Part shown: piece after piece, positions 22,767 through 48,699 of the stretch
Layout: every line of letters begins with the position of its first letter
Numbering within the stretch: the first letter of the stretch is position 1
Origin: Planctomycetota bacterium
GTDB taxonomy: Bacteria; Planctomycetota; Phycisphaerae; Sedimentisphaerales; Anaerohalosphaeraceae
Length of the DNA: 54,295 bases
Assembly: GCA_019456225.1 (NCBI GenBank)
Contig: VRUI01000028.1
Location: 1 to 54,295, forward strand
Direction: 5' to 3'
Program-made: the position numbers and the translations under genes
The notes under the pieces: generated by a model
Databases searched by the model: none
The model's input: the letters and a program-made list of their open reading frames with translations, nothing else
Told to the model about the DNA's origin: nothing

Positions 22767-22933
22767 CTTTTTGGTTCAGTCTGGCCCAAACCACGCCGAT
22801 ATTAAAAACATCAAAGGCTCTCTGTGCAGGCTAAGCGGCGAGAGGCCGCATTTTATGGGCCGTTGCGTAAAAAGTTATACAAAGTGTGCCGCTCCGCACG
22901 CGATCGCTACAAATACAGGCAGGTAAAACAAAT

Positions 22934-24856
22934 ATGAATTGCAACGACAAAACTCAATCTCTAAGCAGCCTCACCGGAACCGTCCGCGACATGTTCCGCC
23001 AGGCTTTTGTACTTTTGCCATGGTTCTGCAAAAACTGTCCGACAGAAAACTACACCGTAAAAAATTACCAATCGGTACTGGACCCGATCAAATCACTCAA
23101 GCGAAACAAGCCGATGTTTTTCGGCGAACTGGAATTCTTTGACCAGGCAAACGCCGCCCTTGCCGATTTTTATGATTCTTTCAATCCCGAAGGCAACACG
23201 AAATCAAACGCAGAAGCCATCGACACTTATCGCCTGGCGTGGTCAAGCGCCTGGAAAAACAAAATCCACCTGCAGCTCAGAAGCACCGAAACAAAGATCA
23301 TGAAATATCTCTACGAGATTCTCGACGGCGGAAACCATGTCCACCTTCCCGAACTGCAGGCACTGGCCAGGCAGATCGGACCCGACGTTGTCGCGCCCGC
23401 GCGCTGCGTCAGCGTAACCAACGGATGGGATCCCAATGACGCCTTCGCCGGCAAAACAAAGAAACTGAACGCTCTCATCGAAAAAATCTTCCCCGGCGGC
23501 GAAGTTAATTTCGATACACAGCACCACGTAAGAACCAACGAACCTGTAGAATTCAAGAACTACCAGCAGTTGGTAAAAGATCGAAAACACGCCGCCTGGC
23601 TGAGATTCGTCGAAATATTCGATGGCGAGATCTGGCACCCGACCATAGACAGCGCGACCCTGCACAAACGGCTCGTTCAGGAAGGCCTCGAAGACTTTTT
23701 GCCCGCGACATTCCGCGGAAGGGTCGGCGTTGGAGCGGAGGGATACCCGCTAAGATTCTATACATACGCCGGGCTGGAACTGGACGCCATCCCGCTAAAC
23801 GATGTAGAGATGAATATGGATTACGCCGAGACCGACGAAAAATCATCGGGCGACCATCCCTGCGACGACAGTACATTCTACTGCCAGACGACGGCGATGG
23901 TAGGCACTGCAAAAACAAAATACTACACAGTCGATTATCGCCGCCGCGCACGCCATAAAAAATTCGCCAGCATTGAAGAACTCGCAAACTCGATCGATAA
24001 CATACGTCAGCGGCTGAGCATTCACGTAAACTCAAGCCACCGCGACACCGCAGTACGTTCGCTGATGTGCATGTTCATAGACCACACCTGCGCACGGATC
24101 GGAAACATGACATCCGCCAAAGCCGTAAAACAAACGTTCGGCGTAACGACACTGCTCACAAAAAAACACGCAAAGATACTAAAAGACAAGATCAAAATAA
24201 GCTATACCGGAAAACACGAACAACCGCAGATGCACACATTCAGACTGTTCAAAAAACCTGCAGACAAAAGAGCAAACCCGACAGAAGCGATCATCGCCGA
24301 AAAGTTAAAATCACTGATCCAGGAACAAAACGAATACCTCTTTACGAATGAGGACGGAAAACCGTATACACCGCAGCAGGTTAACGAATATTTCCGAGCC
24401 GACGAACCTTCGCCGGAATCGAACCTGCCGGAAGGCGGGGCGAATTCGCCCTGCACGGTGCATTGTTTCAGAAACTTCCATGCAACCCGCATGTTCGACG
24501 AGTTCGCACAGGAATATATCGACTTCGCCGATCAACCGCCATACAAGGAAGTGATCGCCGCATACAACGGACGCAAAGAAACCAAGTCCGCACATGCCGT
24601 TGTGGGAATCCTCCAGAAAATCGCAAACCACCTCGGAAACACGCCGGCGATCTGTAGAAAAGCATACATAGCCCCCGCCTCGCAGCTGCTGCTGTTTACA
24701 AGATTCGGATATCGACCGCCGGACGGACTGCTAAAAGACGTCTTCCACGACGAAATAGACGACCCGTACGGACTCGAAAAACAAAAACAATTCAAGTTCG
24801 CAAAGCAAAGAGCAAACACAGCAAAACGAAGAAAAAGAGTAAAAGCAAACGCTTAA
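22934..24856 (+). CDS. Type IB DNA topoisomerase, long form
   Basis: Relaxes supercoils by a 3'-phosphotyrosine nick. The C-terminal half has the type IB core: R388 in CARIGNMTSAKAVKQTFGVTT, K427 in SYTGKHEQ, R513 in CFRNFHATR, and Y578 in LGNTPAICRKAYIAP, matching the poxvirus/bacterial set of catalytic residues. About 640 residues, whereas bacterial type IB enzymes are usually about 330-380. The first 300 residues are an extra domain of unknown fold with Cys residues (CKNCPTENY). The ATG at 22934 was chosen over an upstream non-ATG start because a GGCAGG-type SD precedes it. The core resembles tyrosine recombinases, but the ICRKAYI ending argues for topoisomerase. Confidence 0.85.
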   Translation: MNCNDKTQSLSSLTGTVRDMFRQAFVLLPWFCKNCPTENYTVKNYQSVLDPIKSLKRNKPMFFGELEFFDQANAALADFYDSFNPEGNTKSNAEAIDTYRLAWSSAWKNKIHLQLRSTETKIMKYLYEILDGGNHVHLPELQALARQIGPDVVAPARCVSVTNGWDPNDAFAGKTKKLNALIEKIFPGGEVNFDTQHHVRTNEPVEFKNYQQLVKDRKHAAWLRFVEIFDGEIWHPTIDSATLHKRLVQEGLEDFLPATFRGRVGVGAEGYPLRFYTYAGLELDAIPLNDVEMNMDYAETDEKSSGDHPCDDSTFYCQTTAMVGTAKTKYYTVDYRRRARHKKFASIEELANSIDNIRQRLSIHVNSSHRDTAVRSLMCMFIDHTCARIGNMTSAKAVKQTFGVTTLLTKKHAKILKDKIKISYTGKHEQPQMHTFRLFKKPADKRANPTEAIIAEKLKSLIQEQNEYLFTNEDGKPYTPQQVNEYFRADEPSPESNLPEGGANSPCTVHCFRNFHATRMFDEFAQEYIDFADQPPYKEVIAAYNGRKETKSAHAVVGILQKIANHLGNTPAICRKAYIAPASQLLLFTRFGYRPPDGLLKDVFHDEIDDPYGLEKQKQFKFAKQRANTAKRRKRVKANA

Positions 24857-36402: not shown

Positions 36403-36470
36403 ATTGAAATAGTTCCGCCGAAGGCGGTTCAAACAGCTGATTGCTAATTGCTAATTGCTTTAAGTTCAAT

Positions 36471-38108
36471 ATGGCAAAAATTAAAAGCAAAATACTGGAA
36501 GACCTCTTTTCAGAGCTGCGTTTCGCACCCGCCGCCCAGCAGCAAAACCAACTCCGCGCAGCCGGCGAACTCGCCCTCATCATCGAACCCCAAAAACAAT
36601 ACCCATTCGAATTCATCTGCTTCAAACTCACCGGCTACCGCCTAAAGGAAGACCTCTCCGGAAAATTCATCTCCGGCGCCGACCTGACCCACGACCTCCA
36701 GATCATAATAAACAAACTAAGCCGAAAGGTCGCACCCCGCACCGCGGACCTGGGCGAAGAAGTATTCACTGTCGAACAGCTCGCCGCACAGATGAACGTC
36801 TCGACAAAGACAATCCGACGCTGGCGGCAAAAGGGACTCACCGGCTGGATATTCGTTTTTGATAACGAAAAAAAAATGCTGGGCTTTCCGGCTTCATCGA
36901 TTGACGAATTCGCGAAAAAAAATCCCGAAATCACCAAAACCGCGTCAAAATTTTCACAGCTAAACGATACCGAAAAACAGAACATCTTCGACACCGCAAG
37001 GCAAATAGCCCGCACAGAAAACCTAAGCCGTTACCAGGTCATCCTCCAAACCGCGGCCGCTACACACCGATCGAAAGAAACCATCCGCACGCTGCTGATC
37101 GACTTTGAGCAAAGCAGTCCCAAAAAGAAAGTCTTCGCAAAACCCGCCGGCGCAGTAAGCCCCCACGACGCAAAGACTATACATAAACTGTACGCCGAAG
37201 ATACCCCCGTCGCCGACATCATGCAGCGTTTCCATAGAAGCCGCAGCTCTATCTATCGCATAGTAAACCAGCGACGCGCAAAGAACCTCAGCCGCTTAAA
37301 GATCGAATATATCGACAGCCCGCAGTTCGCCGAGCCAAACGCCGCCAAGACGATAGTAACCGCCACCGAACCCCTCTTAGCCGAGCTAGCCAAACTCTCC
37401 AACCCCCTGCTCAACCGCATCCAGGAAACCGAACTGTTCAGACGATATAATTTCCTTAAATACATCGCATGCGCCCACCGCGAACAGATAGTTTACACCC
37501 GCCCTTCCGGGAAACTGCTGAACCGGGCAGAAGCAAATCTAAACGCCGCAGAGCATGTTAAAAAACTGATCATAGAATCGAATCTCGGCCTGGTCATCAG
37601 CATCGCAAGAAAACACCTCCATGGCGCACTAAACATGCCCGACCTCGTCAGCGAAGGCAACATGTCACTCATGCGAGCCGTGGAAAAATTCGATTATTCA
37701 AGGGGCTACCGCTTCAGCACTTACGCGACGCTGGCTATCGCAAAGGACTACGCAAGGAAAATACCCGCAGAAACTTTCCGGCTTGACAGCCCGTCTTCGG
37801 TGGACATGGAAAGCCTCTCACACGACATCCGCGGCGACCACCTCGCAGACATCACCGCGATAGAAACAGCCGCGCAAAGCCTGGACGAAGTAATAGAAAA
37901 CAACCTCACAAAACGACAGCAGTACATAATAAGAAACCACTTCGGCCTGGAGGGAAACAGGATAATAAAGAAAGCAAAAACATTAGAGGAGATAGGAAGA
38001 ACATTAAATTTGTCAAGGGAAAGAGTAAGACAAATAGAACTAATAGCCCTACAGCAGCTCCGCCACAACCTAAGCCCCGAACAATTCGACCTACTAACAA
38101 AAAAATAA
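36471..38108 (+). CDS. Sigma-70-family factor with extra N-terminal helix-turn-helix domains
   Basis: 545 residues. Residues 367-428 are sigma region 2 (LGLVISIARKHL; LVSEGNMSLMRAVEKFDYSR; GYRFSTYATLAIAKDYAR), and 479-533 are region 4 (LTKRQQYIIRNHFGLEG; LEEIGRTLNLSRERVRQIE), typical of the RpoD/SigA group. Before them lie a first domain (1-95) with no match, a MerR/excisionase-like HTH (about 97-125: FTVEQLAAQMNVSTKTIRRW) and a resolvase-like HTH (about 234-270: HKLYAEDTPVADIMQRFHRS). Region 1.1 is not seen. The ATG at 36471 is chosen; an upstream ATG at 36441 is in the repeat. This layout differs from any sigma factor I recall. Confidence 0.85.
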   Translation: MAKIKSKILEDLFSELRFAPAAQQQNQLRAAGELALIIEPQKQYPFEFICFKLTGYRLKEDLSGKFISGADLTHDLQIIINKLSRKVAPRTADLGEEVFTVEQLAAQMNVSTKTIRRWRQKGLTGWIFVFDNEKKMLGFPASSIDEFAKKNPEITKTASKFSQLNDTEKQNIFDTARQIARTENLSRYQVILQTAAATHRSKETIRTLLIDFEQSSPKKKVFAKPAGAVSPHDAKTIHKLYAEDTPVADIMQRFHRSRSSIYRIVNQRRAKNLSRLKIEYIDSPQFAEPNAAKTIVTATEPLLAELAKLSNPLLNRIQETELFRRYNFLKYIACAHREQIVYTRPSGKLLNRAEANLNAAEHVKKLIIESNLGLVISIARKHLHGALNMPDLVSEGNMSLMRAVEKFDYSRGYRFSTYATLAIAKDYARKIPAETFRLDSPSSVDMESLSHDIRGDHLADITAIETAAQSLDEVIENNLTKRQQYIIRNHFGLEGNRIIKKAKTLEEIGRTLNLSRERVRQIELIALQQLRHNLSPEQFDLLTKK

Positions 38109-38312: not shown

Positions 38313-41300
38313 TTATGCTTTCTTCTTTTCTTTCTCTTTCCTCTTCCTCTCTTCTTCCCCCATCCAGCCCTCAATTGCCTCTGCACTATCAAGTACCCCT
38401 TCTTCATTATGCGGAAGCACAACAACCCGAACAAACTCCGCCAATTTCTGGTAACCCTCTTTATTAAATAGCTCTGCTATTTCCTCTCTAACATTTTCTA
38501 ATACTTTCTTCGCCTTTGCCGCCTCGATCTTCGCAACATGCTCTTCCTTAACCAATGCCGCCATACACCTGCCTCGAACCTTCATAGGCCAGTTATGCAA
38601 AAACTCCTGCCAGAATAGCATCTGCAACATGTCAAGCGTACTGCCATCCCCGCCTCTCCCCAACGCCTTCAAAAATCGAAACGAATTGTGAAGCCGCAAC
38701 AATTGTCGCGGATTATTAAACTCGAACAAACCCGCAAGACGGTAAAACTCCACACCTTCTTCAGGAGTGTCTTTTATTTTTCCCCCATTACTATTTTTAT
38801 CCCTTGGCTTTATAAACTGTTTAACCAGTGTCTGCCCGGCCTTCTGGAATGCCTTCTTAAATCTATTGCTGTTGTCCTGTTCTATAGGTTCTTTAACACC
38901 ACTTTTTGACGCCCCCCTGTTTTTCTTTCTGGAAGATTTGGGCTCTTCTACAGGTTCGGGTTTATCCTTAAACTGCTTCCATTCCTTTTCCTTAAAATCA
39001 AATAATTTCCCATATACGTAATTCCTAAGATATTCGTGCTCAATTGGCTCAAGCGTCACAGGAATCTGAATTATTTTTCCTAAGTAATCTCTCGCCACTG
39101 CTGCCGATGTTCTTCTATTCCCATCCTCTTTCTCAGCCAATATATGATAATGCCTTTCAACTGCCTTGAAAGCAATGCGATGATCTATACATATCATAAC
39201 TATCACATTTGCAGTAGGCATCACCAATCGTATCGCATCTAACGTCTCTGCGATACAGTCATGCTTGCACCTATCGAGATCATCAACGAACAATAATAGC
39301 TTTCTATCTTTCCCAATTTTTATTTTTGTGAAAGGAATTCTGATTGCATTGAGCTTCAATTTACACAATATTTTTATGTGCCCTTTAAGTACAGGAACAA
39401 GCCCTAAATGCTTCGAATAATTAGGAAGTTTAAAATATTTTTCCAAATTCGATGGGAGTGGATGTTTTATAAAACTAATTATCATCTTAAACAGATACCA
39501 CAACCCACCAAACCCACTTACCGCTACTGAAGTTGTGAATGGCCAATGCTCCAATAATTCATCTTTTACAAAATTAATGTCCTGTGGCTTTAAATGGTAA
39601 TATAGAAAACAACTAGCTGTTCCACATAGAAGGAACTTAAAAATATCCCAGCGGCTTTCAATTAGATTAAAACAAAACGCCAGCCAAAATTTATGAAGCC
39701 AGCATTTTATCGTATTAAGAATACCATGATAAGGTTCTCCTTTTAACCCTCTAACAACCTCTTGTGCCATCCCCGCGGCTAAGTTGTCAGTTTGTTCGTA
39801 TTCCCACGCATTAAATAAAGCGAAGTCAAATTTACTTGTCCTAATTTTTTGTAGTCCCGAGTTTATAAGCGCCCACAGAACTGGGACCTTGTATTTAACT
39901 CGTTTCTCCTTATAAATTGCCCAAAACCGACCTCTTTCACGAAGCTTCTTTTTGAGTATTTCCATCACCGAGCTTTTACCTTCTCCCCAGTTCCCCATAA
40001 GCGAAAGCGTAAAACCGTTGTTAAATTCTGTGGCTATCAAAGTGTCGGCAAATGCATCAATTAACACATCTCTGCCAAGGGCGTCTACATCAGTGACTTC
40101 ATCACCGCGTAAAGTAGCAAACTTACCAAACACTTTCAGCATTAATTTATGGAAAACATTTACTGCCTTCTCACCGCCTACATTTTCTACACCCAAGTTA
40201 AGAATTTCTCCCAAGGCATTCAATTGTTCAGGAACAGTAACTATTTCTCCATGAATGACATATACTGTGATTTTTTCTCTAGTTCCTTTTTTGGGCAGAT
40301 TACCATTTAACCACGCTTTTTCTCCAGGTATGTTTTTTTTATAACCACTAAGTTCTGTGATTTTGCCCTTGTCAATAAAATCATTAAGTTTCGGCTCTGA
40401 AACCTCAACTCCTTTCATGGGCCCAACTACTGCCAATGCAATTAATTCCCCATACTCCCCATATTTATGAATTTGCGCAACAACATTATCTCTTTTTCCC
40501 GAATCCGCTAATCTCAAGTTCGCATAACTTTCATCCACATCTTCAGCATAAAGTCCAATATTAGGGTCCGCAGCCAAAACGATAATCCTGTCCAATATCT
40601 GACTCCCCTCAATATCGACTCCACTCCTAAATTTTTTAAATAAGCCCAACTGTATGCTAGGAGCCTCTTGCTTTAACTCTTCATATCGCGGAAAGTCTTT
40701 ACATGATATGGCAGAAGTATCGCCAGAAGTCATGTGAAACTCATGAATAATAAATTCTTCGCCCAAGTCAGCTACACCAGGCAACACTAAATAAAATTTG
40801 ATTTCTGAATATGATTCATCATCGATGTAAGTCATAAAGGTATTGTGCGCAAAATGTAAAACTGATTCTTCATCACTCAATCCAAATCCAACAACGGCCA
40901 ATTGTTTTTTATTATTCCGATCAATTATGTCAAGGAGAACCCTTGATATATTTGATCTAAGACCATATTCGAAATTTGAACGATTGTAGCCTTTTTTCTT
41001 ATTAAGAAAATCTGTGAAATCTGTACACAATTTACGTTCATCACTAATTGCTATATCGCCACCTTGAGTTTTAGTTTCTCGTTCCCATTTACTTCTTAAA
41101 ACCTCATAAGGGGGGAATTCATCAGTTGTTACAAAGAGTTGATAAAGTTTATCATTGATTTTGTAAACCTCAAAAGCTTCAGATGATTTATCTTGGCCCG
41201 GACAAACGATAAACATAAATGGATCAGGCTTTCCTAAAAGACCCTCATTACAAAGAAATTCAAGTTTTCTCGTTGCATCAATTAAAGTCTCACTATCATT

Positions 41301-41930
41301 AGAAAGCGCAAATCCAAATATGGCTATAGGTTTCGCGTCTTTGCCAGCAGTAACACATAGATCAACTTGTTGTCCCTTCTTTACAATTTCCTCAATATGG
41401 CCTGAATAACCGTTACTATCTAAAAACTTTGTAAAATCTTTCTCCAACTTATCCTTATCAACTATCTTGTCAAACTTTTTAATTCCTCTAACCGCCTCTG
41501 ATTCAACAGGCATTTCTACAGCTTCCTTTATACGATCCTCAAGAAAATCTAACGTAAAATCAATGTATTGTTCCATTGCTCCACTAACGTAGTCATTTAC
41601 ACCACTAACTTGATCATATTTGACGATACCGTGTTTTCCCGCTAGCTCATTAAGTCTTTCGCCATGACTACATTCGTACATCAGGTATAAGCCAATGCTA
41701 GCGATTTCCTCAAGAGTGCCTGCTTGGGGTGGCCTAACATTACTTGTCCCTTCCAAAAGCGATAGAGTCGGATATTGATCAAAGTGATTCTGTATAATTG
41801 CTCCGATCTTTGGAACAGATTTACAGTATTTAATAAAAGCCCTAATACGCGGATCAACACTTTTTGCATTAACATTAGCAAGTGGCTTGCGTCTATTGCG
41901 AAACTCCTTAAGAACTGATTTATCCATCAT
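38313..41930 (-). CDS. KAP-family P-loop NTPase with tandem N-terminal domains and internal membrane helices
   Basis: 1205 residues. Walker A GNWGEGKSS at 646-654, followed by hydrophobic helices (KFLLCGTASCFLYY; TTSVAVSGFGGLWYLFKMI), then Walker B FVDDLDR with D883-D884: the KAP arrangement, in which membrane segments sit inside the NTPase domain. The N-terminal 500 residues contain two repeats, seen as AKPIAIFGFALSNDSETL (about 200) and KKQLAVVGFGLSDEESVL (about 340), each followed by a PGQD/PGVAD loop and an FP-YE-L end, with a weaker third near 490 (LIALAVVGPMKG). The C-terminus has coiled, basic helices. ATG 41930 is chosen (GGAG 9 bases upstream; 41945 possible). Base composition is AT-rich compared with its neighbours, suggesting transfer. 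KAP NTPases occur in phage defence systems; that role here is inferred. Confidence 0.85.
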   Translation of the reverse strand: MMDKSVLKEFRNRRKPLANVNAKSVDPRIRAFIKYCKSVPKIGAIIQNHFDQYPTLSLLEGTSNVRPPQAGTLEEIASIGLYLMYECSHGERLNELAGKHGIVKYDQVSGVNDYVSGAMEQYIDFTLDFLEDRIKEAVEMPVESEAVRGIKKFDKIVDKDKLEKDFTKFLDSNGYSGHIEEIVKKGQQVDLCVTAGKDAKPIAIFGFALSNDSETLIDATRKLEFLCNEGLLGKPDPFMFIVCPGQDKSSEAFEVYKINDKLYQLFVTTDEFPPYEVLRSKWERETKTQGGDIAISDERKLCTDFTDFLNKKKGYNRSNFEYGLRSNISRVLLDIIDRNNKKQLAVVGFGLSDEESVLHFAHNTFMTYIDDESYSEIKFYLVLPGVADLGEEFIIHEFHMTSGDTSAISCKDFPRYEELKQEAPSIQLGLFKKFRSGVDIEGSQILDRIIVLAADPNIGLYAEDVDESYANLRLADSGKRDNVVAQIHKYGEYGELIALAVVGPMKGVEVSEPKLNDFIDKGKITELSGYKKNIPGEKAWLNGNLPKKGTREKITVYVIHGEIVTVPEQLNALGEILNLGVENVGGEKAVNVFHKLMLKVFGKFATLRGDEVTDVDALGRDVLIDAFADTLIATEFNNGFTLSLMGNWGEGKSSVMEILKKKLRERGRFWAIYKEKRVKYKVPVLWALINSGLQKIRTSKFDFALFNAWEYEQTDNLAAGMAQEVVRGLKGEPYHGILNTIKCWLHKFWLAFCFNLIESRWDIFKFLLCGTASCFLYYHLKPQDINFVKDELLEHWPFTTSVAVSGFGGLWYLFKMIISFIKHPLPSNLEKYFKLPNYSKHLGLVPVLKGHIKILCKLKLNAIRIPFTKIKIGKDRKLLLFVDDLDRCKHDCIAETLDAIRLVMPTANVIVMICIDHRIAFKAVERHYHILAEKEDGNRRTSAAVARDYLGKIIQIPVTLEPIEHEYLRNYVYGKLFDFKEKEWKQFKDKPEPVEEPKSSRKKNRGASKSGVKEPIEQDNSNRFKKAFQKAGQTLVKQFIKPRDKNSNGGKIKDTPEEGVEFYRLAGLFEFNNPRQLLRLHNSFRFLKALGRGGDGSTLDMLQMLFWQEFLHNWPMKVRGRCMAALVKEEHVAKIEAAKAKKVLENVREEIAELFNKEGYQKLAEFVRVVVLPHNEEGVLDSAEAIEGWMGEEERKRKEKEKKKA

Positions 41931-41945
41931 AATTATTTTCTCCAT

Positions 41946-46203: not shown

Positions 46204-47430
46204 ATGGCTGGAAAAGAATTTAGAAACGATGAACAAAATATTACCGACGTGGACGCCGATTGTCTTATTAATAAGCTTTATCGTTTTTTAGGAATCCATA
46301 ACATTGAAAAAGCTTTGAAAAGACATGAAAACGCTATAAGACTGTCGGGGCCACTTATTACAGAATACACACTTAAAAAAAGACATCCTTGGTTTAATGC
46401 CTTAAGAGAAATTGCCATATTAAAATCAAAAGCTAAGTCAATCAGAAATCATTTGACTCCAGAGATTAAAATGTTAGTTGGGGACGCTAAAAAGGTATCT
46501 ACACTTAGTAAGTATATGCCATTTCCTGTAAAGGAAAAGTATAAACGTGATCTATTAGACCCTAAGAGGGCGTTTGATTACTTATTTGAAATAAAAATGG
46601 CTTGGCATTTTTACTTAAAGGGGCATGAAATCAAATGGTACGAAGATGATGGTGTGAAGCGTCCTGAATTTTTGGTTGCAACAGAAGACTTTGAGTTTAA
46701 TGTTGAGTGTAAGAGAATAAGTGCTGATACTTCACGTAAAGTGAAACGTGAAGACTTTCATAGGTTTTCAGATGATTTATTGTCTAATATTCAAAGTAAA
46801 GGTTATGCAGGAAGTGTGGATATCCTTCTTGATGAACGATTTGAAGGCAATCAAATTAAATCTCTAGTCACGGAAATACTAGAGCGAATTGATTCTGGTG
46901 GGATTAAGAACCAATTTGCAATATCATTAGGAAATATCAAGTTGGACCTGGACGCAAAAAGCAAAAGAAGCGTTAGTATAAATGAACTGGAGAAGAAAGT
47001 ATCTGACGGGCTTGCAAGTGGAAAATACACTGCGTTTACTTTTACCGGCAGGAACAGTAACGATATAATTGACCCTCTCTTAGTAAGTGTTGAGTCTAAA
47101 AAGCCAGACAAGGTTTTAGATGGAATATACGACAAAATCTATAATGCCGCTGACGGCCAATTGTGTAAGTCAATGCCAGGTATAGTCATTTGTTTTTTGG
47201 AAGATGTTTATGATTTAAAAAAACTTGGAAGTAATAGCGGACTTCAAGTGATGACAAATGCGATATTAAGTAAAGAAAAGTTTTCACATCTCATAGGAGT
47301 AGGTTATTCTGCTGAAACTCGGATAAACAGGGTTCCCGGTGTAGAAATATACGACAACGAAGCATTGCTCTTTAGAAATCCAAATTGTAAATTTGAAACG
47401 GCGAAATCTTATATTCACATGTCTAATTAA
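46204..47430 (+). CDS. PD-(D/E)xK-like hypothetical protein
   Basis: 408 residues, not matched to a named family. The segment PEFLVATEDFEFNVECKRIS (E168, K170) has the PD-(D/E)xK pattern: an acidic residue in a strand, then E-x-K. The preceding part (HFYLKGHEIKWYEDDGVKRP) resembles the start of restriction-endonuclease-like folds. The gene is AT-rich compared with neighbours. AAGAGG sits 7 bases before the ATG. It lies between nrdJ and an XRE/ImmA pair; nuclease activity is inferred from the motif alone. Confidence 0.6.
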   Translation: MAGKEFRNDEQNITDVDADCLINKLYRFLGIHNIEKALKRHENAIRLSGPLITEYTLKKRHPWFNALREIAILKSKAKSIRNHLTPEIKMLVGDAKKVSTLSKYMPFPVKEKYKRDLLDPKRAFDYLFEIKMAWHFYLKGHEIKWYEDDGVKRPEFLVATEDFEFNVECKRISADTSRKVKREDFHRFSDDLLSNIQSKGYAGSVDILLDERFEGNQIKSLVTEILERIDSGGIKNQFAISLGNIKLDLDAKSKRSVSINELEKKVSDGLASGKYTAFTFTGRNSNDIIDPLLVSVESKKPDKVLDGIYDKIYNAADGQLCKSMPGIVICFLEDVYDLKKLGSNSGLQVMTNAILSKEKFSHLIGVGYSAETRINRVPGVEIYDNEALLFRNPNCKFETAKSYIHMSN

Positions 47431-47454
47431 AAAAGAATTGGAGTGAAGTATTCA

Positions 47455-47476
47455 GCATGGGCGTAGCCCATCCTAC
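47455..47476. repeat. CATGGGCGTAGCCCATCCTACG repeat
   Basis: Palindromic GGGCGTAGCCCA unit; related to 36379-36402 and 48703-48727. It lies between the nuclease-like gene and the XRE gene. Confidence 0.55.
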
Positions 47477-47572
47477 GAAAGATGGGGAGTCATTCTTGAT
47501 TGTCGGCCTATATGGTCGCCTTTGCTTGCCTCCTTTTTCTTGCGAAATTTATTAAAAATTAAGTTTTTGGCC

Positions 47573-47607
47573 TTTACTTCCGATATGTTATCACGTATGA
47601 TAACATA
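47573..47607 (+). promoter_or_regulatory. Promoter and operator of the XRE/ImmA pair
   Basis: -35 TTTACT (47573-47578), 17-bp spacer, -10 TATGAT (47596-47601). The -10 lies inside a perfect inverted repeat, arms TATGTTATCA (47584-47593) and TGATAACATA (47598-47607) around CGTA. This fits autorepression by the XRE protein encoded downstream. Confidence 0.8.
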
Positions 47608-47654
47608 GATGGAAATATAGTAGGATACATAGTAATTTGGGAAAGGGATTAGCT

Positions 47655-48047
47655 ATGGCAGTGGAAAAAGGTCAATTTGGTAGTTTTTTGAAGGCTCAGC
47701 GGTTGAAAGCCAGTTTTGGGCTTCGGCGGTTTGCTGATCTTATTGAGATGCCAGCATCTAATTTGAGTGCTGTTGAGCATGGGCGGCGGTCGATGCCGGC
47801 TGATAAGGTCATGCTTTCTGCGGAGGTTATCGGGCTTGTTAAGGGTACGGAGAACTGGGATGATTTCTTTGACCTTGCAACTGTCGCCGAGCAGATTCCT
47901 GCTGATGTTCAAAAGATCGTGAATAAGGGATTTGTTCCGGCTCTTTTACGGACCATTGACAATGCGAAATTAACAGACGATGACATTAAGAACCTGATCG
48001 AGGAGATAGAGGGCAAGGATGGCCGCACACAGACAGAACCCAGCTGA
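47655..48047 (+). CDS. XRE-family helix-turn-helix regulator
   Basis: 130 residues. Helix-turn-helix at about 10-55 (FLKAQRLKASFGLRRFADLI, MPASNLSAVEHGRRSMP); the remainder is helical. The ATG at 47655 has AAAGGGA upstream. Its last 29 bases overlap the next gene (48019-48699), an ImmA/IrrE-like peptidase. This pairing, as in phage ImmR/ImmA and other systems, usually lets the peptidase cleave the repressor. A palindrome over the promoter is its likely binding site. Confidence 0.88.
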   Translation: MAVEKGQFGSFLKAQRLKASFGLRRFADLIEMPASNLSAVEHGRRSMPADKVMLSAEVIGLVKGTENWDDFFDLATVAEQIPADVQKIVNKGFVPALLRTIDNAKLTDDDIKNLIEEIEGKDGRTQTEPS

Positions 48048-48699
48048 TAAACTTCGCGAGTATTCCATTACAGAATTAGAACAGATCGCAGAGAAGTTTC
48101 ACGACGGCATAGGTGACCGATTTGAGATACCGGTCGATGTTGACCTGCTGCTTGAGGATATTGATGGAGTTGATCTGGATATCTGGCCCGGTTTGCAGGC
48201 AAACTACAGAATGCTTGGAATGACAGGGTTTAACCGACATACAGGAATTTTGTCAATATACATTGATGACCAGCTAGCGGATTCATCTGCCGGAATACGC
48301 AGATACAGAATGACTGTAGCCGAGGAACTTGCTCATATTATTATACATCGCCCCGCAATAGAAGCAGTTGAAAAACCGGAGGACTTTAGGCACATACAAA
48401 ACCATGATAGGTGGTATCTATATGAGCGTAATGCTAAATGGCTTGCTGCGGCAATCCTAATGCCTGCCTCTCATGTTTTAAGGGATGCTGGAAAAATGTA
48501 CACTGAAATGATATCAGCTTTGCCTGCTGATATGAAATATACTAATCCCGAAGCTATCAAGAAAATGATTACAAGCAAACTTGCTGCAATGTATGATGTA
48601 TCGGTTGTGTCTATGCACTACAGGCTTGAAAAATGGCCTATCAATGTAATAAGCAAAATTGACGAAGCAATGAAAAATCAGTTCGACTTTTTAGAGTAG
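48019..48699 (+). CDS. ImmA/IrrE-family metallopeptidase-like protein
   Basis: 226 residues. The segment RMTVAEELAHIIIHRPA aligns with the HExxH zinc motif, but the first His is replaced by Glu: E102-E103-L-A-H106 instead of H-E-x-x-H. ERNAKWLAAAILMPASHV is the conserved alpha-helix with LAAxxLMP. Overlaps the XRE gene by 29 bp. The missing His may mean an altered or absent protease activity; such EELAH variants are also known to me in related proteins. A TA-like or lysogeny-like regulatory pair is inferred. Confidence 0.82.
   Translation: MAAHRQNPADKLREYSITELEQIAEKFHDGIGDRFEIPVDVDLLLEDIDGVDLDIWPGLQANYRMLGMTGFNRHTGILSIYIDDQLADSSAGIRRYRMTVAEELAHIIIHRPAIEAVEKPEDFRHIQNHDRWYLYERNAKWLAAAILMPASHVLRDAGKMYTEMISALPADMKYTNPEAIKKMITSKLAAMYDVSVVSMHYRLEKWPINVISKIDEAMKNQFDFLE

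Follow-up and report, generated by a model that had tools for sequence, protein, structure and literature searches.

A mosaic KAP NTPase gene with degenerate nuclease-fold repeats: a candidate receptor-like conflict gene from a planctomycete

Conflict systems linked by effector-associated domains (EADs) have been described (Kaur et al. 2020, 2021; PMC7159879, PMC8195603), and in such modular counter-invader systems a KAP ATPase can substitute for the STAND NTPase (PMC8195603). KAP NTPases have also been described among diversified antigen-sensor genes (PMC10907252), and the purified KAP protein QatA assembles into 7/8-mers and binds DNA (PMC13279940). The gene considered here lies in a 54,295-nucleotide stretch of planctomycete DNA, analysed whole and termed the window, and encodes a KAP NTPase preceded by two copies of a domain designated R and by a further domain, D3. 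The preliminary description of this gene, made from the sequence, knew of no such domain combination. That statement holds for the combination within the open-access literature and databases searched, but the use of KAP in place of STAND had already been described (PMC8195603).

Gene structure and genomic setting

The window gene occupies one uninterrupted frame of 1210 codons on the minus strand (38313-41945) and is single-copy in its own genome of 4.45 Mb. The ATG at 41930 is probably the likelier start, because a GGAG lies upstream at normal spacing and homologue L027 has the same start. The features recognised in the encoded protein are given below; related proteins are cited by handle (L027 is also G765, L026 is G792, L048 is G790 and L028 is G003), and percentages are amino acid identities.

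38313..41945, minus strand: whole gene, mosaic KAP NTPase of 1210 aa, probable start codon at 41930
41496..41945, minus strand: N-terminal all-helical module, residues 1-150, common to L027 (66%, pS 0.29) and G005 (47%)
41073..41465, minus strand: R1, residues 161-291, predicted HsdR-N-like PD-(D/E)xK fold with degenerate motif (VDLCV...IFGFA), nearest G005 R1 (51%)
40662..41048, minus strand: R2, residues 300-428, degenerate motif (LLDII...VVGFG), nearest G003 R2 (44%) and G004 R1 (41%)
40155..40640, minus strand: D3, residues 436-597, alpha/beta domain without family assignment, nearest L048 (51%)
38670..40073, minus strand: KAP P-loop NTPase, residues 625-1092, nearest L026 (60%) and L027 (59%)
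39972..39995, minus strand: Walker A sequence motif GNWGEGKS, residues 651-658
39468..39650, minus strand: region of the membrane hairpin inserted between the Walker motifs, residues 766-826, weak here and clear in homologues
39267..39299, minus strand: Walker B region sequence motif LLLFVDDLDRC, residues 883-893
38691..38714, minus strand: NPRQLLRL, conserved sequence motif of KAP domains, residues 1078-1085

By profile and Walker motifs the window protein is a KAP P-loop NTPase: the Pfam KAP_NTPase family matches residues 625-1092 at E=4.6e-29 and 102 bits, against a gathering cut-off of 20 bits, and inspection of the sequence revealed that Walker A, Walker B and NPRQLLRL are all intact. The membrane helices that had been reported between the Walker motifs are also present in the family, although the hairpin of the window protein is weak, with TM2 at residues 807-826 and a weak TM1 near 766-790; clear TM pairs occupy the same insertion in L026, L027 and G003. 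No sequence match to solved KAP structures was found, and neither RNA elements nor, within the window, tRNA genes were detected.

The AT-richness initially noted for the gene is pronounced. Its GC content is 0.384 and its GC3 is 0.342, compared with 0.60-0.68 for nrdJ, uvrC, secA and tyrS, and in seven of the eight other carriers the R gene is likewise AT-richer than its flanks, L072 being the exception. By contrast, the gene does not sit away from ordinary genes, as had been stated, but between uvrC and nrdJ (7.6 kb apart), with a sigma-like open reading frame and nrdJ as its immediate flanks. A search of 38 genomes of the family located nrdJ in 36 of them, and the family's three other carriers have the R gene and nrdJ on separate contigs; a position conserved in all relatives was not found, the R gene not being next to nrdJ in the relatives searched. 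A clean empty insertion site could not be demonstrated. Since the nrdJ-uvrC interval of three relatives (1.3-5.1 kb) has other content and uvrC is inverted there, the site is read as rearranged rather than as a clean insertion.

Several other features of the window were observed. The sigma-70-like protein encoded at 36441-38108 comprises regions 2 and 4 and extra N-terminal HTH segments; its PADLOC match to MzaA (E=1.2e-26) probably derives from the sigma domains, and among 14 nrdJ loci of the family a single one has a relative nearby, a weak one (30%). Across nrdJ from the R gene lies a second AT-rich cassette, of three genes (46204-48699). Its 408-aa protein (GC3 0.29) matches nothing in Pfam or PADLOC, contains the motif EFNVECKR resembling xExK and has one weak plasmid relative, in Pseudomonas (25%); the other two genes encode an XRE-type HTH protein and an IrrE-like M78 peptidase (PADLOC capP, E=3.6e-10). 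In 14 relatives, the surroundings of nrdJ contained none of these three genes. A eukaryotic-type DNA topoisomerase I (type IB) catalytic core is encoded at 22886-24856 (Pfam E=8.7e-12).

The R repeats and domain D3

The preliminary description counted two to three repeats of an unassigned domain. R is a domain of ∼130 aa present in exactly two copies N-terminal of KAP: a profile built without the window sequences recovered residues 163-292 at 72 bits and 301-427 at 99 bits, the best of 1000 shuffles reaching ∼5 bits. The candidate third repeat (residues about 436-597) is instead D3, a separate alpha/beta domain that differs from R in sequence and topology. That R was unassigned is borne out by Pfam, where it has no match above cut-off. 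D3 has no Pfam or PDB sequence match either, and its best structural match, DR2400 (DUF419/YjbR type), is too weak for use at Z 7.3.

The AlphaFold modelling that had been proposed as a check was performed. A model of R1 built from eight repeat sequences (pLDDT 82, pTM 0.80) has the order alpha-beta3-alpha-beta3-alpha and was matched by VIA-align to BsaXI (Z 9.1), BpuSI (8.2) and Hjc resolvases (7.6), followed by a restriction-endonuclease-like protein (7.3) and the DrdV and SPARDA nucleases (6.5). In a 600-residue model, R1 matched HsdR 3h1t at Z 10.9, and R2 matched BsaXI at 9.9 and EcoR124I HsdR at 9.6 (VIA); the models behind these matches were predicted from alignments of eight rows, and the longer one has a pTM of 0.38. 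Given that the list is coherent and consists mostly of PD-(D/E)xK nucleases, assignment of R to the HsdR-N-like PD-(D/E)xK fold is supported at the level of predicted structure, where HsdR and the type IIG/IIB enzymes match its core at Z 8-11. In direct sequence comparison, hhalign of R with four HSDR_N_2 rows returned a probability of 1.8%, providing no sequence-level link, and the Pfam HSDR_N_2 match in L027 R2 is sub-threshold (E=0.02).

The catalytic positions of R are occupied in the window protein by D, G and A (R1) and by L, G and G (R2), so that neither copy retains the triad and nuclease activity is predicted to be lost from both. The complete D...DxK set is intact in four of 15 R copies, namely G003 R1, L027 R1, G672 R1 and G004 R2, and the three residues co-occur above column shuffles (p=0.004), a value that is indicative because the rows are related. 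In a tree of the R copies, a weak split separates an R2 type, in which every copy is inactive, from an R1 type, to which the intact copies belong. The suspicion of a degenerate nuclease fold thus agrees with both the structure comparison and the relatives that retain D...DxK.

Carriers and module histories

Of the 161 genomes of the order, nine carry R, each in a single protein; these nine proteins are the only ones of the order in which R was seen, and D3 was seen there in six of them alone. The carrier genomes are 78-96% complete, such that a second R partner protein could be missed, and the sample as a whole comprises few sequences from mostly metagenome-assembled, incomplete genomes. An earlier genome-wide scan with a three-row R alignment found none; it was judged insensitive, since R carriers later surfaced through a KAP scan. 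The partners of R are KAP domains of three types and, in one protein, a TIR-like domain with TPRs; the architectures are as follows.

Window protein and L027: helical N-terminal module, R1, R2, D3, KAP
G005: N-terminal module, R1, R2 and D3 as in the window protein, a further module, another KAP type
G003: wHTH-like domain, R1, R2, the further module of G005, window-type KAP
G672: N-terminal part of G003, R1, R2, NB-ARC-like P-loop, G005-type KAP
G667: Clp_N, LRR, R, D3, third KAP type
L026: P-loop, R, D3, KAP
L048: P-loop, R, further region, D3, KAP (protein cut by the contig end)
G004: TIR-like domain, R, TPR, R, without KAP

The TIR assignment in G004 is a sub-threshold Pfam match (E=0.048), and a PDB sequence search detected no TIR in this protein. 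The module common to G003 and G005 (L013:8470-9100 and L014:8280-9010; 50% amino acid identity) carries the conserved pattern CIYDFL.DK.GIDKGMK.GEVC..CLER and is not found in the window protein or the other family genomes searched. KAP of the window type occurs more widely with other N termini, in Balneolaceae, Gammaproteobacteria and Nitrospinaceae. Standalone KAP NTPases were also observed in six Marinomonas records (L039, L041-L043, L045 and L049), in differing gene neighbourhoods in at least L039 and L043.

The nearest relative of the window protein differs from one of its five modules to the next. The N-terminal module is nearest to L027 (66%; synonymous difference 0.29), and for the remaining modules identity drops from the nearest relatives listed above to a next best of 29% for R1, 32% for R2, 40% for D3 and 48% for KAP. 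Comparison with L027, which belongs to another family of the order, gave a dS of 0.34 for the N-terminal module and 2.15 for the KAP module; synonymous distances are biased in AT-rich genes, but this contrast is internal to one gene pair. For nrdJ, the window genome differs from its own family by 72-81% at synonymous sites, which is saturated.

Sharp boundaries are also seen between other carriers. L026 and L048, from the same genus, occupy one site beside ymdB (91% DNA identity) and are 79% identical over 783 nt across the gene start, after which amino acid identity drops to 24-37%. L026 and L027 share a KAP stretch of 1786 nt at 85.5% identity and have unrelated N termini. Between G003 and G004, a KAP protein and a TIR-like/TPR protein, the sole DNA-level sharing is one inactive R copy (82%), for which dN/dS is 0.44. 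In G005, whose KAP domain is of a different type, a 67%-identical remnant of a window-type KAP C terminus directly follows the stop codon (L014:6600-6781, minus strand); as judged from this sequence, a new KAP module has taken the place of an earlier one, part of which was left behind. Taken together with the distribution of nearest relatives, these patterns are read as exchange of modules by recombination between genera and families. The R genes of the carriers are solitary and lie at various sites. The view of the gene as mobile is consistent with its composition, patchy occurrence, changing positions and mosaicism.

Proposed role and comparison with known systems

The mosaicism, the patchiness (9/161), the low GC3, the HsdR-like fold, the PADLOC matches and the presence in G672 of an Abi_2 gene (L071:6866-7807, minus strand; Pfam E=9.4e-58) two genes upstream of the R-KAP gene together point to a horizontally shuffled, single-gene conflict NTPase of NLR/STAND-like type with a membrane-associated KAP switch, a reading to which a probability of roughly 55% is assigned. 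A trypsin-like peptidase gene was also observed next door to that Abi_2 gene. Of the possible functions, defence against phages is considered the most probable. The variable middle (R1, R2 and D3) would recognise an invader-derived ligand, most likely a nucleic acid or a nucleic-acid/protein complex, upon which KAP may oligomerise at the membrane in an NTP-dependent manner. Oligomerisation would in turn activate the exchangeable N-terminal module (a helical domain here; wHTH, P-loop or Clp_N with LRR in relatives), damage the membrane, or both, and the infected cell would be lost. Three KAP relatives combine an intact R1 with a dead R2, and in these the R1 nuclease might itself be the killing activity; in the window protein, a binding role alone is predicted to remain. 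The oligomers and DNA binding of QatA fit this mechanism by analogy.

Several observations count against the conflict-NTPase reading. No recognised defence partner adjoins the window gene, the KAP relatives that stand alone in Gammaproteobacteria and Balneolaceae have housekeeping genes as neighbours, and searches of phage, plasmid and IMG/VR sequences with the N-terminal part of the protein found no relatives. Moreover, one R protein per genome was found, and the fold derives from models (pTM 0.38 over 600 residues), with an empty hhalign comparison to HSDR_N_2 and a sub-threshold TIR match in G004.

The main rival is allorecognition, in which a polymorphic mosaic membrane NTPase would tell kin from non-kin cells, or from incoming conjugative DNA, in the manner of fungal heteroincompatibility STAND proteins. 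Such a role would suit the abrupt transitions between modules, the variability of the middle domains and the replacement seen at a single site within one genus, and allorecognition has likewise been put forward as an alternative for the diversified NTPase systems found in multicellular bacteria (PMC10907252). On the other hand, no partner gene of a secretion or contact-dependent system was recognised adjoining the window gene, and the nuclease fold suggests nucleic acid; allorecognition is considered unlikely. Similarly improbable is that the gene is the decaying leftover of an ATP-driven, membrane-linked restriction factor whose two nuclease domains have died. Although the catalytic residues are gone from both window copies and persist in the four intact copies of relatives, the frame of 1210 codons is open, the NTPase motifs are intact, dN/dS is 0.15-0.58 across all module pairs tested, the inactive R copy included, and inactive R copies have been transferred between different proteins. 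That an ordinary housekeeping membrane NTPase is AT-rich by chance would accord with a gene standing alone among ordinary genes, as Marinomonas and other KAP relatives also do, but is very unlikely given the restriction of R to nine genomes, its absence from beside nrdJ in the relatives searched, the foreign composition in most carriers and the mosaic histories.

Tentatively, and at somewhat below even odds, the carriers may constitute a previously undescribed planctomycete family of KAP NTPase receptors that are anchored in the membrane and built from cassettes. In these, a restriction-derived pseudonuclease would serve for recognition or as an adaptor and would pass as a module between proteins of the NTPase and TIR types, yielding an NLR-like repertoire from recombined single-gene cassettes. 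If so, bacteria outside well-studied lineages recombine whole modules within one gene into NLR-like receptors and give a dead restriction nuclease a new use in sensing or as an adaptor. Naturally occurring chimeras (different middles at one site; replaced KAP with remnant) are ready pairs for telling the specificity module from the killing module, and alignments of the two unlisted domain families (R and D3) and the N-terminal module defined here can seed further searches.

Among named systems, the PADLOC comparison that had been suggested placed QatA, PifA and PDC-S20 nearest to the window protein. Taken together, NCBIfam and PADLOC name QatA and PifA as the closest families. The QatA score is far below the equivalog cut-off, at 77 bits versus 600, and Qat membership was rejected on this basis and because the gene is solitary, without qatB, qatC (QueC-like) or qatD (TatD). 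PifA and QatA of qatABCD have the KAP domain in common with the window protein, and the R and D3 modules fall outside the matches of those models. In predicted fold, R is like the N-terminal nuclease domain of HsdR (HSDR_N/HSDR_N_2) and the type IIG/IIB enzymes BpuSI, BsaXI and DrdV, whose PD...DFK-like motif is kept in the R copies of four relatives and lost in the window copies; in contrast to those enzymes, the window protein contains no helicase/translocase or methylase.

The EAD-linked STAND/KAP systems are likewise built on a modular NTPase with exchangeable N termini, TIR, TPR and nuclease-fold companions. R itself occurs both in KAP proteins and in the TIR-like/TPR protein, with 82% identity at DNA level, but the TIR match of the latter is sub-threshold. 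Published EADs are non-enzymatic, whereas R has an enzyme (nuclease) fold, and no second R-bearing partner was found in the same genome in any of the nine carriers (78-96% complete); the window gene is set apart from a classical EAD system. The tripartite logic of an exchangeable effector, an NTPase switch and a variable recognition part is that of Avs proteins and NLRs, with the differences that KAP replaces STAND, the variable part is N-terminal to the NTPase and a membrane insertion is present. Given the published descriptions of KAP in place of STAND (PMC8195603) and in antigen-sensor genes (PMC10907252), the kind is already known, and the window protein adds a new variant to it.
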